Assembly (NCBI GenBank): GCA_029261775.1
Contig: JAJDAR010000291.1
Span: 1 to 37,880 of the forward strand
Length of the DNA stretch: 37,880 nt
Direction of reading: 5' to 3'
Source: Deltaproteobacteria bacterium
Lineage (GTDB): Bacteria; Myxococcota_A; UBA9160; UBA6930
The stretch's first letter is position 1. Each line of letters begins with the position of its first letter. The notes beneath the pieces are model-generated. The model was not told where the DNA came from. It ran no database searches and saw only the letters and a program-made list of their open reading frames with translations. A program made the position numbers and the translations under genes. Below are positions 8,100 through 32,365 of this stretch, in pieces.

Positions 8100-8508
8100 A
8101 CGCCCGGGCTGTGACTGCGCGCACAGCCGGAACCACGGGGTCGTGCGAGGGTTCGTTTCGTGGGAAGGCCGGTGCTCGCAAGGGCTCGGCCGACCTTCTT
8201 GCCCACGCGGTGCCTCGACCCGCAGGAGTGTGGACGTTCCGCGCTCCATCCCCGTCCGGGCGGGGCGAGGTGCTGCGTGGGCCCCTGCTCGCCTCGCGCT
8301 GCGACCGGCCAGGGCCTCGCCGGGGCGCCGTCCGGACCCCAGCGACGCGTCGCCGCGGCGTCTTCGCCCGCCGATCGGGGTCCAGAAACACGACCCCCCG
8401 AGAGCAGGTCTCCGGTTCCGGGTCTTGCGACCTCGTTCCCTTCGAACCCCACAGCGGCTACGGCGTCCGCGCTCCCGGGGGCGGTGGCCTGGGACGGTGT
8501 CCCGACGA

Positions 8509-23834: not shown

Positions 23835-24086
23835 ATGCCCAACGTGAGTGCGGATCTCGTCGAGATCCTCGTATGCCCGGAGACCAAGCAGCCGGTGGCC
23901 CTCGCCACCGCGGAGCAGCTCGAGAAGCTGAACGCGGCCATCCGCGAGGGATCGCTGCGCAACCGCGGCGGCGACGCGGTGAAGGCGGAGCTCACCGAGG
24001 GGCTGGTCCGCGAGGACGGCAAGATCCTGTATCCGGTGGACGACGGGATCCCGGTGATGCTCATCGAGGAGTCGGTCGAGCTCTAG
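23835..24086 (+). CDS. Trm112-like small protein
   Basis: The 83-residue protein reads like the Trm112/UPF0434 family: the N-terminal LVEILVCPETKQPV and C-terminal KILYPVDDGIPVMLIEESVEL are the conserved ends. Only the first Cys of the zinc-ribbon remains, which is common in bacterial members. An insert of about 30 residues lies between the two halves. Trm112 proteins bind and stabilise methyltransferases in eukaryotes and archaea; the bacterial role is unclear. It is the last gene of the thiolase/ACAD operon, 11 bp after the second ACAD. Its AGGAGGCCCC leader nearly copies the one before that gene. Confidence 0.85.
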   Translation: MPNVSADLVEILVCPETKQPVALATAEQLEKLNAAIREGSLRNRGGDAVKAELTEGLVREDGKILYPVDDGIPVMLIEESVEL

Positions 24087-24149: not shown

Positions 24150-24263
24150 GGGTCCGGGCCGGCGACGCGGCCGTGCTCAGTGTCGCGCCGAACGGAGTTC
24201 GGGGACCTCGCGTCTGCTTCGGCGGCGCTCGATTGCGCGCGGCCGCGCCGCCGGCCCGGACCC
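24150..24263. repeat. 114-bp hairpin element, copy 1
   Basis: The whole element folds on itself. Arms 24150-24176 and 24237-24263 pair over 27 bp with one mismatch (24165/24248) and one G-T pair. CAGT/ATTG pairs follow, then GCGCCG (24185-24190) with CGGCGC (24223-24228), closing a 32-nt apical region. It aligns without gaps with copy 2 at 28482-28595. The blocks 24171-24192 and 24223-24242 are identical to copy 2, the outer arms differ but keep pairing, and the 30-nt middle is unrelated. It lies in the tail-to-tail gap between the Trm112-like and PAC2 genes. The functional strand is unknown. Confidence 0.85.
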
Positions 24264-24334: not shown

Positions 24335-25114
24335 TTATTGGGCGAACTCCCTCTTCTTCAGCTCCCGGACGTACTCGGCCAGGGCCGGGTCGCTTGCGAC
24401 CTGCTCGTTGATGCGCTCCTCGAAGGCCGCGGCGGACTTGACGAGGGGTTCCTGGTCGACCGGGAGGTCGACGTGGCGGAGCAGGGCTTGCACGAGGGCG
24501 AGGGCGCCTCGTGGGTTGGGGGTGAGCGTGATGTAGTGCGGGAGCGCGGCCCACAGGCTGAGCACGGGGACGGACTGCTCGCGCAGCCGATCGGCGAGCA
24601 CGCCGACGATGCCGGTGGGACCTTCGTAGCCCGAGGGCTCGATGCCGACGGCGTCGATGGTTTCGGGAGGATGAGCGAAGCCGGTGACCCGGACCGGACG
24701 GGAGTACAGGACGTCGGCGAGGTAGGCGCCGAGCAGGACGACGCGCTCGACCCGCAGGTCGACGACCAGCTCGAGCACGTCGTCGCAGAAGCTGCGCCAG
24801 CGCAGGTGCGGCTCCTCGCCCCGCCCGACGATCAGGTCGCAACGACCTTCGAGGCTGCCGTACTCGAAGCGGTAGTCGGGCCACTCGATGCGACGTTGTC
24901 CGCCCTCGGTGAGCTCGACGCTGGGGCGGCGGACGGTGAAGTCGTAGTACTCCTCACCGTCGATGTGCGCCAAAGGTGCCGTGGGCAGGCTCCGGACCAG
25001 GAAGTCGGCCGCCGCACTGGCCGAGTCGCCGGCGTCGTTCCAGCCGTCGAAGGACAGGATCAATACGGGCCGTTGCAGCGTCGGCAGGGCGAGCAGGTGG
25101 AGCGCGTCCGCCAT
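24335..25114 (-). CDS. PAC2 family protein
   Basis: The 259-residue protein matches the PAC2 (proteasome assembly chaperone-like) family found in many bacteria without proteasomes. Its N-terminus RPVLILSFDGWNDAGDSASAAADFL, the YYDFTVRRPSVEL strand and the central VLLGAYLADVLYSRPVRVTGF are typical, as is the late HYITLTPNPRGALALVQALL. The function in bacteria is not established. ATG 25114 is used; an in-frame ATG at 25144 adds ten residues overlapping the approach to the regulator gene. It lies 45 bp after the response regulator on the same strand, so it is probably the third gene of the kinase-regulator operon. Confidence 0.87.
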   Translation of the reverse strand: MADALHLLALPTLQRPVLILSFDGWNDAGDSASAAADFLVRSLPTAPLAHIDGEEYYDFTVRRPSVELTEGGQRRIEWPDYRFEYGSLEGRCDLIVGRGEEPHLRWRSFCDDVLELVVDLRVERVVLLGAYLADVLYSRPVRVTGFAHPPETIDAVGIEPSGYEGPTGIVGVLADRLREQSVPVLSLWAALPHYITLTPNPRGALALVQALLRHVDLPVDQEPLVKSAAAFEERINEQVASDPALAEYVRELKKREFAQ

Positions 25115-25159
25115 GGGAGAAGGGTGGCAGACCCCTCTGCCCACCGCACCCCGGCGGGC

Positions 25160-26994: not shown

Positions 26995-28464
26995 ATGATC
27001 CGTCCCCGCTGCTGGATCCTGACCGCCACCCTGCTGCTCGCCGCCGCGACCGGGGTGCATGCGGAGTTGCCCCCGGAGGGACGATGTCCCGACTTCACCG
27101 GGGCTCCCTCAGGCGAGGGCGAGGTCGATGCGGGCTCGCCCCTGGTCAAGGAGGGAGGGCAGCTCAGCCTGGCCGACCTCCTGGCCTTGCGCCAGCTGCT
27201 GCCCGAGGAGGTCTGGTCCTACCGGGAGGCCTTCTTCTACGAGGGCATGCGGATGACGATCGGCTACTGCCACCGCCGCTACGGCGTGCCCGACTTCTTC
27301 ACGGCGGCCACCGCCGAGTTCGCCGACCGGGTCGAGCTGGACGAGGCCGGCAACCTGCGCGGCTACGTGGCGGGCCTGCCCTTCCCTCCCGAGAGCATCG
27401 ACCCGGCCCGCTCCGACGCGGCCGTCAAGTGGGCCTGGAACCTCGAGCACCGCTACCGCGGCGCAGGCCCGGTCGGTCAGTTCAAGATCCTGGACCTGCC
27501 GAGCCGGGTCGGTGCCCCGCAGACCTACGAGGGCGAGTGGCACTTCCTGCGCACGGGCCATCGCTCGGACCTGGTGGCCAGTGACTACCGGGTCCCCGAA
27601 TCGACCCGCAGCCTCTGGGTGGCCGGCGGGCGCTTCCACGAGCCGACGAACGCGCGGCACCTGGCCTGGCGGCAGATCCGCCCGCGGAAGGCCTCCCAGC
27701 ACTATGAGGAGCCGGACGACACCTTCGTCTACGTGCCCGACATGCGGAAGCCCCGGCGCTCGGCCAGCACCTGGAGCGACGGCCTGTTCACGCCTCGCTA
27801 CAGCGTGTCGGGCGTCGAGGGCGGCGGCGGCGGCGTGCCCTTCGTGACCCAGGGCGGTTCCGAGTTCAGCCCCGGGGGCATCGACTCGATCCACCCGACC
27901 GCGGGGCTCTCGATCGCGGCGAGCGAGGACATCCGCAAGGGCTTCACGGGCCTGGCCCTGCGACCCAACGCCTACGACTGGACCGTGCTCGGCGAGCGCG
28001 AGGTGTTGGCCCCGCTGAACGGCAACGAGGAGGGCTGGCCCTCCGATCCGAGCCGCAACTACGGCCCGACCGGGCTCTCGATCGCGAGCGACCGCTGGGA
28101 CGTGCGCTACGCCGTGGTGATCCGGGGCCGGGCCCGCCGCAAGATCGACGGGGTCGCCGCCATCACGCTCTGGATCGACGCCCAGACCCAGCAGCCGCTC
28201 TACTACATCAGCCAGAGGGAGAACGGCTTCCTGCTCGACATCGGGATCCTGGCGCACCGCTACAGCGGCGACCGGGCGGGCTACCCGGCGTGGCCGGGCG
28301 GGGAGCAGGCGCGGGTCTTCGATCCGGTGGCCGCCGTCTTCTACTACGTGCCGAGCGGCGGGGCGGGCTGGCGGCGGGAGTCCTACGACGTGGTGTCGGT
28401 GCCGATCGATCCGGGCAAGCTGCGCAAGCTGACGTCCACGGACGAGCTGCTCAAGGGGCGGTAG
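26995..28464 (+). CDS. DUF1329 family secreted protein
   Basis: The 489-residue product has a signal peptide (MIRPRCWILTATLLLAAATGVHA, cut before ELPPEG) and no further membrane segment. It looks like DUF1329, with WKWN-type motifs (VKWAWNLEHRYRG), FVYVPDMRKPRRSASTWSDGL, RYAVVIRGRARRKIDGVAAITLWIDAQTQQPLYYISQ and a C-terminal KLRKLTSTDELLKGR. DUF1329 proteins are LolB/LolA-like in fold predictions and often occur next to DUF1302 proteins, but the function is not settled. GGAGG lies 6 nt before the ATG. It is divergent from the histidine kinase and converges with the DUF1302 gene. Confidence 0.82.
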   Translation: MIRPRCWILTATLLLAAATGVHAELPPEGRCPDFTGAPSGEGEVDAGSPLVKEGGQLSLADLLALRQLLPEEVWSYREAFFYEGMRMTIGYCHRRYGVPDFFTAATAEFADRVELDEAGNLRGYVAGLPFPPESIDPARSDAAVKWAWNLEHRYRGAGPVGQFKILDLPSRVGAPQTYEGEWHFLRTGHRSDLVASDYRVPESTRSLWVAGGRFHEPTNARHLAWRQIRPRKASQHYEEPDDTFVYVPDMRKPRRSASTWSDGLFTPRYSVSGVEGGGGGVPFVTQGGSEFSPGGIDSIHPTAGLSIAASEDIRKGFTGLALRPNAYDWTVLGEREVLAPLNGNEEGWPSDPSRNYGPTGLSIASDRWDVRYAVVIRGRARRKIDGVAAITLWIDAQTQQPLYYISQRENGFLLDIGILAHRYSGDRAGYPAWPGGEQARVFDPVAAVFYYVPSGGAGWRRESYDVVSVPIDPGKLRKLTSTDELLKGR

Positions 28465-28481: not shown

Positions 28482-28595
28482 GCATCGGGGCCGGGCCCGC
28501 GTCCGTGCTCAGTGTCGCGCCGAAGGACCACCCAGTTCGTCGTGTGGCGGGGGTCGGCGCTCGATTGCGCGCGGACCCGGGCCCGCCCCCGACGC
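28482..28595. repeat. 114-bp hairpin element, copy 2
   Basis: Arms 28482-28508 and 28569-28595 pair with three mismatches (28484/28593, 28491/28586, 28500/28577) and one G-T pair. The pair 28481/28596 extends the stem one step further. CAGT/ATTG and GCGCCG (28517-28522) with CGGCGC (28555-28560) close the apical part. Blocks 28503-28524 and 28555-28574 are identical to copy 1 at a constant offset of 4,332 bp. The 30-nt apical segment is unrelated to copy 1 and can form its own CCAC/GTGG stem (28528-28531 with 28544-28547). It lies between the DUF1329 stop and the terminator of the DUF1302 gene. Confidence 0.85.
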
Positions 28596-28639: not shown

Positions 28640-28684
28640 AAAAAAAGGAAACGGCCGGGTGTCTTGCGACATCCGGCCGTTTCT
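28640..28684 (-). terminator. Rho-independent terminator of the DUF1302 gene
   Basis: AAACGGCCGG (28649-28658) pairs with CCGGCCGTTT (28673-28682), with inner TGTC/GACA pairs around a TTGC loop. Read on the minus strand the hairpin is followed by CC and seven T (28640-28646), a classical intrinsic terminator 16 nt after the stop at 28700. It is the only such textbook terminator I see in the window. Confidence 0.9.
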
Positions 28685-28699
28685 TGGAGTGGCTTCGAG

Positions 28700-31600
28700 C
28701 TAGAAGGTGTAGCGGAGGCGGAGGAAGACCTCGTCCCGCTCACGCACGACCGACAGGCCGGGCTCGAAGAACTGCTTGTCCCGGTGTCGACCGACGCGGT
28801 TCACCGCACCGGCGGCCGGGTCGTTGATCGGGGCATCCGTGCTCTTCCAGCGGCCGTTGAACAGACCCAGACCGAAGGTCGCCGAGAAGTTCTCGGTGAA
28901 GCGGTAGGTGATCTGCGGCAGCCAGGCGCCCGAGTTCGAGTGGACGTCGTAGACGAACACCATCGAGGGCAGCAGGCGGTCCTGGAAGTAGCCCGTGCTC
29001 ACCGCGAACGTGAAGAACACGTTCCACGGCCCGGTCTGCACGTGGCTCTTGGTCTGGCCTTCCACGTACTGGAAGAACCACTGCGAGTTGATGAAGAAGG
29101 TCCGGTTGGCGTTCAGGAAGTTGATGAAGGTGGGGCGGTCGACGGACACGGTCAGGTTGAAGTTGTCCGTCTCCGACACACCGGACCGGGAGTTCGCATC
29201 CGTGGTCGGCAGGCCCTCGATCCAGGTGAACTCGAGGCTCCAGTTGGACTTGAAGGTGTCCTCCGCGAAGTCCATCGAGAAGCCCAGCACGTTGCGGCGC
29301 TCGTAGCGCAGCACGAGGTCGTTGCCGCCCTGCCACAGGAACTGCCGGCGGCCGAAGCGACCGTTGCCCCCGGCCTTGACCGAGGCCGTCGTGAGGCCGG
29401 TCAGGCTGTTCGCCAAGCCGAGCACCGCCGAGCACCAGCCCGGCTCGCGGAACGAGCAGCGGTTCTTGGCAAAGGGCTGGTCCGGGTTGAACACCGACTG
29501 ATCCCCGGCGTCCCGCGCGGTGAACGTGGTCACACCGTCCTCGCCCGACGAGTTCACGACCAGCGAGAGCATGAAGTTCCAGGACACCGCCGAGATCTCG
29601 GCGCGGAACTGCTGGCCCGTGAACGGATGGATCAGGCCGGTGTTGGTGCCGTCCACATCCGGCCGGTAGCCCTTGTCGCCGGGGCCCCGGCAGCCCGCGA
29701 TGTACGCACAGGTGAATCCGTCGAAGTGGATCGTGCCAGGCTGGGCCCGGGAGGCGTCGGTCGCGTCCCAGACGGCACCCCCCCGGAACGTGCCCTCGAC
29801 GGTCGGGAAGGACTCGAACAAGGCGTTCGGGTCGGCGTTCAGCAGATCGAAGCCGTGCACGTCGCAGTTGGTGTCGTAGAAGGGCCCGCAGCCGAGCAGC
29901 GCCTCCTGCTGATCGGTGAGGAACGGGCTGATGCCGGACGTGAGGAAGGCCGGGCCGAAGCCACCCGCCGCCGCGATGTCCGCCTGGGTCTGCGCACTGA
30001 AGTCCGTCACCAGGGCCGAGCCGCCGTCCGCGGGGTCGACGTTGATCGACACGAGCGGCGTGGGGCACGGAGCGCAGGTCAGGCCGGGCACCGTGCCGCC
30101 CGGGATCGAGGTGAACTCGACGAAGGGCTGCAGGGCCAGCTGGTTGTAGGTCTCGACGGTCAGTCCGCCGAGCCCTGCGAAGAACGCGTTGCCGTTCAGG
30201 AAGCCGCCGGTCGGCGCCGCCGCCGAGGCTGCATTCTGGCCCGACAGGATGTTCCCGAAGATCGCCGAGATGGGTACCGGCGCGCCGGCCGGAACGGTCT
30301 GGCTGCCGAACACCGACTGCGCGCAGGCCGACGGGTCGAGGGCCGAGATGCCGACCGTGCCGGCGCACACCCAGGCGAAGGCCGTCTGGTTGATGCTGTG
30401 GTGAAGCAGCGCGTTGTCGGCGGTGAGGCAGTCGCTCTCGGTCCCGATCCGGCACTTGCCCGTCGACTCCCCCTTGCGCGGCCGGCCACTCACCGGATCG
30501 ACGTTGCGCGAGTACGTGAACAGGACGTCCGCGTAGGGCAGGTCGTTGTAGCCGTAGAAGTCGGAGATGGCGAAGCTGAAGCGATCCCAGCGCCACTCGA
30601 TGCGGCCGCCGATCTCGATGCCCTTCCAGCTGTTCCACGGGTTCGGCGGTCGGATCTCGCCGGCGAGGCCGATGCCGTTCTGCCCGTGGTTCAACAGACC
30701 GAAGGTCTTGCTGCAGGCGACGAGAGGGGTGTACGCCTCGCCGCAGCGACCCAGGTCGTTGGGCTCGAACTGGTCGAAGTTCGCGGCGACTTCGAGACGC
30801 ACGTCCTCGAAGGGGCCCACCTCGTAGAGCGAGAAGATGGCGCGGATGGCCCAGAGCGCGATCCGCGACTCCTCGAGGTTCGGTAGCGAGGCCAGCGCGA
30901 GGTCCTGCGGGTTGAACTGGTCCGTCGTGCGGAAGAGCTCGGTCTTGCCCCAGACGATGTTCTGCTTGCCCGCGCGCACCCAGAGGCGGCTGTCGAGCAT
31001 CTCGATCTCGAGGTAGGCCTCCTTCAGCTCCTTCTCGTCCTGCTGGGAGGCGCCGCGGTTCCACTGCAGCTCGTTGACGGTGAAGTTCTGGTCGAACGCA
31101 TCGCCGTCGCCATGGGCGAGGAAGTCCTGGAGCCGCTCGTTCGGGTACCAGATGCCCTGGGGAACGTGCTTGGGCGCGCCCGCGTCGAAGCGGACCTCGG
31201 GAGCCGGGCGGAAGGGCAAGGCCAGGCCGCCGCCCGCGCCGCCGAGGACGTCCTTGTTGGGGTCACCGGGGCGGAACGGGTTGGGGACCTGCTTGTTGTC
31301 GTGGATCGGCTGGATCTTGCAGCCGGGCGTGATCGGCAGCGCCTGGACACCGAAGCCGTCGGTCGGGCCCTTGGTCTTGCGGCTGCCCCACAGACACTCC
31401 CGACCATTCAGGTTCTGGAACTGCAGGAGCGCGGGATCGTCCGAGCCTTGCTCCGGGAAGTCACTGAGGATCCCGTCCAGGCCGAGGCTCGCGCCGTAGA
31501 AGCCGTTGTAGGTGACGCCGCCCCAGTTTCGGACGGCACGCCGGCTGCCCACCTTGCCGAAGCGGTTCCGGAAGGCCTGCGTGAGGATGGCATCGTCATG

Positions 31601-32050
31601 CTCCCGCCGGGTGTCGCCGATGTAATGGGTGCCGACCCAGCCGTTCTCGCGACCGCTGGAGATCCGCTGCGGCAGCCGGCCGGGCCGGTCGCCGTACACG
31701 TCCACGTTCGGCAGCAGGTAGCAGCCGCGCCGCAACACGCAGTCGAAGCGGCCTTCGATGCGGGCGAACGCCGAGACCAGGTCGAAGGGGCCGAACCCAT
31801 CGGGCGCGATGTCCGCTTCGATCTCGAGGTTGAGCACGTGATACCACTGGCTCAGGTCCCAGTCGTTGGAGCCGCTGAAGTCCGTCCAGAGCGAACGCAC
31901 CTGCTGCTCGTAGTATCCGTGGATCTCGACTTTGCCGTCCCAGAGATCGATCGCTCTTGCCGGCAACGCGCTGGCGACGATCGAACCTGCCACGAACAAC
32001 ACGGCTGCAAACGCAGCTCGCACCTGGTGAGCCGACGTAGCTCCCTGCAT
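28700..32050 (-). CDS. Very long DUF1302 family outer-membrane beta-barrel protein
   Basis: The 1116-residue protein has a signal peptide (cut near SALPARA-IDLWDG) and ends in LRLRYTF, the terminal aromatic expected of outer-membrane barrels. DUF1302 features include IDLWDGKVEIHGYYEQQV at the start, LWVRAGKQNIVWGKTELFRTTDQFNPQDLA, WRWDRFSFAISDFYGYNDLP and many alternating strands in the last 250 residues. DUF1302 proteins are usually about 500-700 residues. The extra length here is Gly/Pro-rich loops with 18 cysteines, mostly in closely spaced pairs. A role in outer-membrane passage or handling of hydrophobic compounds is often guessed but unproven. AGGAGGGGTC precedes ATG 32050; the open frame to 32326 lacks a signal peptide. 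Confidence 0.85.
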   Translation of the reverse strand: MQGATSAHQVRAAFAAVLFVAGSIVASALPARAIDLWDGKVEIHGYYEQQVRSLWTDFSGSNDWDLSQWYHVLNLEIEADIAPDGFGPFDLVSAFARIEGRFDCVLRRGCYLLPNVDVYGDRPGRLPQRISSGRENGWVGTHYIGDTRREHDDAILTQAFRNRFGKVGSRRAVRNWGGVTYNGFYGASLGLDGILSDFPEQGSDDPALLQFQNLNGRECLWGSRKTKGPTDGFGVQALPITPGCKIQPIHDNKQVPNPFRPGDPNKDVLGGAGGGLALPFRPAPEVRFDAGAPKHVPQGIWYPNERLQDFLAHGDGDAFDQNFTVNELQWNRGASQQDEKELKEAYLEIEMLDSRLWVRAGKQNIVWGKTELFRTTDQFNPQDLALASLPNLEESRIALWAIRAIFSLYEVGPFEDVRLEVAANFDQFEPNDLGRCGEAYTPLVACSKTFGLLNHGQNGIGLAGEIRPPNPWNSWKGIEIGGRIEWRWDRFSFAISDFYGYNDLPYADVLFTYSRNVDPVSGRPRKGESTGKCRIGTESDCLTADNALLHHSINQTAFAWVCAGTVGISALDPSACAQSVFGSQTVPAGAPVPISAIFGNILSGQNAASAAAPTGGFLNGNAFFAGLGGLTVETYNQLALQPFVEFTSIPGGTVPGLTCAPCPTPLVSINVDPADGGSALVTDFSAQTQADIAAAGGFGPAFLTSGISPFLTDQQEALLGCGPFYDTNCDVHGFDLLNADPNALFESFPTVEGTFRGGAVWDATDASRAQPGTIHFDGFTCAYIAGCRGPGDKGYRPDVDGTNTGLIHPFTGQQFRAEISAVSWNFMLSLVVNSSGEDGVTTFTARDAGDQSVFNPDQPFAKNRCSFREPGWCSAVLGLANSLTGLTTASVKAGGNGRFGRRQFLWQGGNDLVLRYERRNVLGFSMDFAEDTFKSNWSLEFTWIEGLPTTDANSRSGVSETDNFNLTVSVDRPTFINFLNANRTFFINSQWFFQYVEGQTKSHVQTGPWNVFFTFAVSTGYFQDRLLPSMVFVYDVHSNSGAWLPQITYRFTENFSATFGLGLFNGRWKSTDAPINDPAAGAVNRVGRHRDKQFFEPGLSVVRERDEVFLRLRYTF

Positions 32051-32365
32051 GACCCCTCCTGCTATCCCGAACCGTCCGCTCCACCCCTGCGTCACCGGAC
32101 AGGCCATGGCTTCCCACGCCTGCTGCGCCGCTTCGACTCGGACGATTCGGTCGCGCTTTCCCCCAAAACCCCGGCGAAGGACCCGACCGGACCCTCCGCT
32201 TGCCTCGCCTGCACTTCCCGGGGAACCCGATGTCGGCCGGCGGACACCTACACGATCTGGTGTTCCGCCGTCCCTCCACCCCAGGGGCCCAAGCTCGGCA
32301 AGTGGCAGGTATACGCCGAACGCCACGCGAAGACAACCGAAATTGGCCTTCGGGCCCCCGCGGGG
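32051..32365. other. 315-bp gap between the topoisomerase and DUF1302 genes
   Basis: Both neighbours are on the minus strand, so this holds the end signal of the topoisomerase gene and the promoter of the DUF1302 gene. I see no T-tract hairpin and no clear -35/-10 pair. The frames through it are Arg/Gly/Pro-rich without motifs. The only firm element is the ribosome binding site of the DUF1302 gene next to 32050. Confidence 0.5.

Follow-up and report, generated by a model that had tools for sequence, protein, structure and literature searches.

Dispersed non-coding hairpins with a fixed asymmetric core and freely varying, complementary arms in an order of Myxococcota-type bacteria

The stretch of DNA analysed here (hereafter the window) comprises 37,880 nt from Deltaproteobacteria bacterium (GCA_029261775.1, contig JAJDAR010000291.1, positions 1-37,880, forward strand; GTDB lineage Bacteria; Myxococcota_A; UBA9160; UBA6930). 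Two of its junctions between convergent genes each hold one copy of a long hairpin element, and the features of these junctions are as follows.

23835-24086, forward strand: Trm112-like gene upstream of copy 1 (Pfam PF03966; start codon read from the sequence)
24150-24263, forward strand: hairpin element copy 1 (own1), between the Trm112-like (forward) and PAC2 (reverse) genes; model score 99.8 bits
24150-24171, forward strand: variable outer stem of copy 1, 5' arm, pairing with 24242-24263
24172-24181, forward strand: conserved core of copy 1, 5' half, CGTGCTCAGT
24182-24231, forward strand: variable head of copy 1, 50 nt (5-54 nt in other copies)
24232-24241, forward strand: conserved core of copy 1, 3' half, ATTGCGCGCG
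24242-24263, forward strand: variable outer stem of copy 1, 3' arm
24335-25144, reverse strand: PAC2 family gene converging on copy 1 (Pfam PF09754)
26995-28464, forward strand: DUF1329 gene upstream of copy 2 (Pfam PF07044 on a longer reading frame; homologues)
28482-28595, forward strand: hairpin element copy 2 (own2), between the DUF1329 (forward) and DUF1302 (reverse) genes; model score 95.5 bits
28482-28503, forward strand: variable outer stem of copy 2, 5' arm, pairing with 28574-28595
28504-28513, forward strand: conserved core of copy 2, 5' half
28514-28563, forward strand: variable head of copy 2, 50 nt
28564-28573, forward strand: conserved core of copy 2, 3' half
28574-28595, forward strand: variable outer stem of copy 2, 3' arm
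28646-28685, no strand assigned: terminator-like hairpin distinct from the element, lying between copy 2 and the DUF1302 gene
28700-32326, reverse strand: DUF1302 reading frame (Pfam PF06980; start uncertain), converging on copy 2

The original prediction had described the two copies as 114-bp hairpins that align without gaps at an offset of 4,332 bp, and realignment reproduced this with exact coordinates and 79 of 114 positions identical. The identical blocks it named (22 and 20 nt) are present, and its five double changes all proved correct when checked base by base in both copies: from copy 1 to copy 2, GC becomes TA at 24170/24243, GC becomes CG at 24164/24249, CG becomes GC at 24163/24250 and, outermost, CG becomes GC at 24155/24258 and GC becomes CG at 24151/24262. 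A sixth column, 16/99, also differs (A-C in copy 1, C-G in copy 2), and only copy 2 has breaks in three outer pairs (3/112, 10/105 and 19/96). Each copy folds into one long hairpin, which as RNA is better than 200 of 200 shuffled sequences on both strands (z from -4.4 to -6.5). Self-BLAST of the window returned the pair at E = 8.7e-9 and no second dispersed repeat. Across the 5.3-Mb, 578-contig assembly of the same genome, a 21-nt block occurs perfectly exactly twice, and three extra matches with 3 mismatches are at the control level. The separate hairpin at 28646-28685 has an 18-bp stem with an A run ahead of it and TTTCTT at its 3' end, resembling a two-way terminator. Two further hairpins were seen in this genome: a strong one at 8201-8282 of the window between divergent reading frames (-63.6 kcal/mol for 8190-8290), and an AT-richer, long-armed one between tandem genes (contig C309; L264:8414-8519) that the core does not match.

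Covariance models run on relatives, the check proposed with the original prediction, together with core-pattern searches raised the count by 26 copies, spread over nine additional genomes of the order to which the window belongs. The stems pair in all 26, so that neither condition named as refuting the prediction, a lack of more copies or unpaired stems, was realised. The family totals 28 distinct copies in 10 genomes (families f1, f2, f4, f7 and f10), with one to six copies per genome. A model built from the two window copies detected three in G013 and a single one in G014; a six-sequence model extended the set to G056, G022, G046 and G079 and raised the G013 total to four. Applying a third model to 20 genomes with greater sensitivity brought in copies from G044, G046, G032, G056 and G013, and a search for the core pattern gave extra copies in G032, G044 and G056 and one in G065. 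These model searches scored 9 to 150 candidates per genome, which limits their sensitivity. Weak matches in G002/G003 and on contig C255 of G032 (31-37 bits) were left out of the count, being hairpins with another head. Neighbouring copies tend to lie 4-9 kb apart (13198 and 22009 on contig C95 of G044; 24150 and 28482 in the window), a spacing that may hint at local duplication.

As far as searched, the family is confined to this one order of Myxococcota-type bacteria, within which its presence is patchy; model searches of four congeners of the window genome found no core-bearing copy. Phylum-wide, with 9 candidates scored per genome, a depth at which members could be missed, no model match lay outside the order, and the core-pattern matches found there, in 379 genomes sampled across the phylum, have arms that do not pair. 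A stricter pattern applied to approximately 85,000 species genomes gave 13 loci, of which only those on two contigs from a single Myxococcota MAG and on one from a deltaproteobacterial MAG fold; they add no locus beyond known carriers, among which are Myxococcota bacterium IP29b_bin.147 and Deltaproteobacteria bacterium Meg19_02_Bin_151. Viral contigs gave no match with pairing arms to the gapped core patterns; an exact 15-mer had 44 matches there, at the level of sequence alone. As had been predicted, no Rfam family matches the window hairpins at the gathering threshold. Permissive searches with family members, compact copies included, returned only miRNA-type models, which are generic for any long hairpin and were discarded.

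All 28 copies share one layout, with a variable outer stem of ~20-30 bp on the outside, then the core, then the head, for a total length of 67 to 118 nt. The core is asymmetric, CGTRCTCAGY facing RTTSCGYRCG, and this pattern fits 27 of the 28 copies, the sole deviation being at two positions in G079. Three core positions are not Watson-Crick, namely columns 3 (T-G) and 6 (T-C) in 28/28 copies and column 9 (G-T) in 27/28, and column 4 covaries (G-C in 24 copies, A-T in four). Heads are either compact (5-6 nt; G032, G044, G046, G056 and G065) or long (48-54 nt; the window copies, G013, G014, G022 and G079). The 5' arm of the outer stem is 56% G and 69% purines. Arms are never identical between two copies of one genome, and arm classes common to several copies exist within genus g25 and G046 only. 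In nine of 18 copies the core strand carries the motif GTTGCY no more than 60 nt from the hairpin, compared with a background of 2% per 60-nt flank. It lies 5' of the hairpin in some copies and 3' in others, and three of the nine carriers (G044a, G044b and G056b), together with the orthologue G032b, are closely related.

The arms drift and stay complementary. With 18 sequences the covariation score was 0.603, compared with 0.176 after shuffling and at most 0.165 after sliding; double changes occur in 21 of 30 pairs and account for 121 cells versus 37 in the shuffled control (18 aligned arms). Pair differences among the first 18 copies were double in 1250 cases and single in 201, and within single genomes two copies of G046 differ by four double and no single changes in 20 pairs, two of G044 by two double and no single changes. 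The original prediction took covariation without indels to be a mark of selected structure. In a helix selected in one RNA strand, G-U is tolerated better than A-C. Outer stem positions 3-20 of the 28 copies (504 pairs) hold 482 Watson-Crick pairs, 1 G-U, 11 A-C and 10 others; the excess of A-C over G-U on the core strand has a two-sided p of 0.006, indicative because the copies are related, and the reverse strand, which reads the A-C cells as G-U, still has them at only ~2% of pairs. With counts of one and 11, the view that covariation without indels by itself marks a structured RNA is not supported: G-U appears too rare for selection on one RNA strand, which suggests maintenance at the DNA level (template switching or hairpin DNA) or use of both strands. 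Template switching has been proposed to yield simultaneous double changes and perfect stems (PMC8794818). Double changes of this kind can thus also arise through template switching or from a DNA hairpin (PMC8794818). Such correction would erase the core mismatches too, so that their fixation would indicate selection on the core.

Approximately 12 of 16 independent loci lie at convergent gene junctions, which hold 27% of intergenic bases and make up 24% of long junctions (overall background 24-28%; p ~1e-4; the counts rest on a crude gene caller based on reading frames). The other loci are tandem (G014 and G044a/G032b), lie upstream of a P450 gene (G013e, in the tandem/divergent group) or at a contig end (G046a). 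In 400 kb of G013, convergent junctions yielded four long hairpins, every one of them a family member. Inverted pairs, with each hairpin after its own gene, occupy convergent junctions in G013 and at apparently one shared locus in G044, G032 and G056, and where a single copy stands at a convergent junction, its core has the orientation of the nearer gene in ~9 of 11 cases. The neighbouring genes have no common theme (Trm112/PAC2, DUF1329/DUF1302, rpoD/AICARFT, acyl-CoA dehydrogenase/DUF2203, glutamine synthetase, Na/H exchanger and others), a mixture that speaks against a regulon. A scan, together with the flanks of 18 copies, gave no T run after the stem as in an intrinsic terminator, and a scan for sigma-70 type promoters gave no promoter-like site.

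Comparison of orthologous junctions showed that the element persists at some sites, decays at others and gives way to other hairpins. Between the DUF1329 and DUF1302 genes, where the window has copy 2, G056 has an intact copy in the same orientation, G044 a decayed one whose 5' arm is replaced by another hairpin, and G032 no core-bearing copy any longer; in G002 and G003 the site is taken by a palindrome of unrelated sequence (arms ~50 bp). The Trm112-PAC2 junction, the site of copy 1, holds other hairpins in G002, G003, G008, G023, G038 and G050, and the rpoD-AICARFT junction holds the element in G013 and, by eye, other short hairpins inside a 40-55 nt gap in G002 and G004. The G044b locus carries the core in G044 and G056 and, in G032, a related head (GGGCTCTAACCCCATGTCGCCC) on arms of the same type; the related head GGGCTC ... 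CCCCATGTCGCCC, again with this arm type, is found at L356 ~2436-2557 (G032) and L360 ~8400-8490 (G056), at or beside a core-bearing copy. A second set of hairpins follows the same plan, with a fixed head (AAATNAAGCGCAGSC ... CGAGCCAT) and variable, near-perfect arms; it includes one copy in the window's own genome (contig C130; L258:5432-5617), an inverted pair in L248, and loci L242, L243, L247, L249, L159, L160 and L302. Near-perfect palindromes with GGGGAC were also seen at orthologous junctions (L128 and L129, after the DUF1329 gene in G002 and G003; L162, L178 and L185), and are possibly linked to the Y1 transposases of some of those genomes. Taken together, these comparisons mean that the positions are partly old and that hairpins with different heads replace one another there, and the presence of a copy at the DUF1329 junction in two different families suggests that inheritance may be largely vertical. 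At the three orthologous loci compared, neither a clean empty site nor a target-site duplication was found; a candidate empty site in G044 for the G032a locus was rejected, the alignment being a diverged or replaced stretch with no clean joint.

On balance we consider it somewhat probable that the window hairpins are copies of a dispersed, non-coding, palindromic hairpin repeat of MITE/REP-like type, whose core is recognised by a protein and whose arms are kept complementary. The core, as the identity-bearing part, would be the recognition site of a putative trans-acting protein, which during copying or mobilisation most likely binds the DNA hairpin in its extruded or single-stranded form. The arms would need complementarity only, most likely kept by arm-to-arm template switching in replication; copies that stop folding would be lost, and those that persist would do so mostly at the 3' ends of convergent genes, the places where harm may be least. 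There the transcript hairpin may, perhaps, help to end or protect messages as a secondary gene-end role. We counted in favour of the repeat the 28 copies in 10 genomes with the core intact in 27, the outer-stem pairing with its double changes, the unrelated neighbours, the convergent bias, the inverted pairs, the differing heads and the decayed copy at shared loci, the four congeners that gave no core-bearing copy and the second hairpin set of like plan. Counted against it were that no mobilising enzyme was found, Y1 being absent in five carriers, that neither a clean empty site nor a target-site duplication turned up, that copies are few and partly old, and that the core mostly follows the sense of the nearer gene and shows two positions of G-U type when read on that strand, as an RNA function might lead one to expect. 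A more specific version, which we regard as tentative, has mobile DNA hairpins of which only the internal, mismatch-bearing core is recognised while the arms drift as long as they stay complementary, the head types (core A, the related G032 head and the AAATNAAGCGCAGSC/CGAGCCAT head) being specificity classes of one putative hairpin-binding recombinase system.

The hairpins could instead be RNA elements of gene ends, acting at convergent junctions as a two-way transcription barrier or as a hairpin that protects 3' ends, with the core as an RNA site for protein binding. The prevalence of convergent loci, the inverted pairs with each hairpin behind its own gene, the agreement with the nearer gene, and the rpoD-AICARFT junction with either the element or another short hairpin all point this way, and use of both strands would itself disfavour G-U and A-C alike. 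However, no T run follows the stem, a terminator-like hairpin already stands beside copy 2, the copies are few and adjoin unrelated genes, some are tandem or divergent (G014, G044a/G032b, G013e), and A-C outnumbers G-U by 11 to 1, so that we hold this reading to be possible but doubtful. A structured RNA gene acting in trans is improbable: strong covariation speaks for it, as do the G-U pairs that the conserved core has on one strand, whereas the near absence of G-U pairs from the outer stem, the sporadic presence, heads of 5 to 54 nt, and the lack of a promoter-like site of sigma-70 type and of an Rfam match speak against it. An invariant core with free, near-perfect Watson-Crick arms is better accounted for by a DNA hairpin repeat than by a gene acting purely as RNA.

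Two other explanations were weighed. The covariation may be a mere by-product of palindrome correction in an element with neither function nor mobility, which the near-perfect Watson-Crick arms, as expected from template switching (PMC8794818), would fit; yet correction should also erase the core mismatches, which stay fixed, and the core is common to five families of the order, making this account unlikely too. A single-stranded-DNA recombination site working like an integron attC would explain why the hairpin folds just after genes, conserves certain unpaired positions and varies in its head, but in the flanks, read by eye, consistent RYYYAAC/GTTRRRY boxes were not apparent at the base of the stem, the conserved part lies inside, flanked by ~20 bp of variable stem, and cassette arrays were not seen, so we think this very unlikely. 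The original suggestion of a new structured RNA or a REP/MITE-type element is partly supported: the element is real, structured, outside Rfam and distributed like REPs or MITEs, and a purely RNA form of it is less favoured.

Literature searches gave no description of this hairpin element, and it represents a previously undescribed palindromic repeat family with an unusual plan, a fixed core between freely varying, complementary arms. It also exemplifies how strong covariation, which is usually taken to prove a functional RNA, can go together with a near absence of G-U pairs that points to upkeep at the DNA level or to use of both strands, and a count of G-U versus A-C could be a simple check when new RNAs are called from covariation.

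Among known systems, copies of a MITE are expected to share sequence along their whole length. The arms of the present element differ between copies and are nonetheless complementary, and no genome holds several near-identical copies as a hairpin MITE would. The ERIC/IRU repeats, intergenic hairpins of ~130 bp of which ERIC alters mRNA stability in an orientation-dependent manner (PMC2229807), are the nearest in size and likewise intergenic, and are set apart, ERIC by description, through the same difference in the arms. With integron attC sites the element shares a plan only, in that the hairpin folds, conserves some unpaired positions and varies in its terminal part, whereas its core is internal, with no cassettes and no R-box motif seen at the base. 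Stems maintained by template switching in RNA genes are perfect, with both arms changing together and few intermediates (PMC8794818); these features are shared, but the element is a dispersed intergenic repeat. REPs are intergenic palindromes, mostly at the ends of convergent or tandem genes and often inverted dimers; they are 20-40 bp long, bear an unpaired GTAG or CGTC tag at one end and occur in high copy number, those with CGTC having no known transposase (PMC3733652). The element resembles them in its intergenic position, convergent-junction bias and inverted dimers, and differs in its length of 67-118 nt, internal core, freely varying arms and one to six copies per genome. The flanks of 18 copies, by eye, show no consistent tag (CGTC lies beside G022 only). 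Mobilisation by a RAYT/Y1 transposase was rejected, since the carriers G013, G014, G046, G056 and G079 have no Y1 and a model search of 22 Y1 loci from other genomes found the element in none. With REP-like location and inverted pairs, but a different length and neither a consistent tag nor a link to Y1, the element is best filed among the dispersed palindromic repeats.
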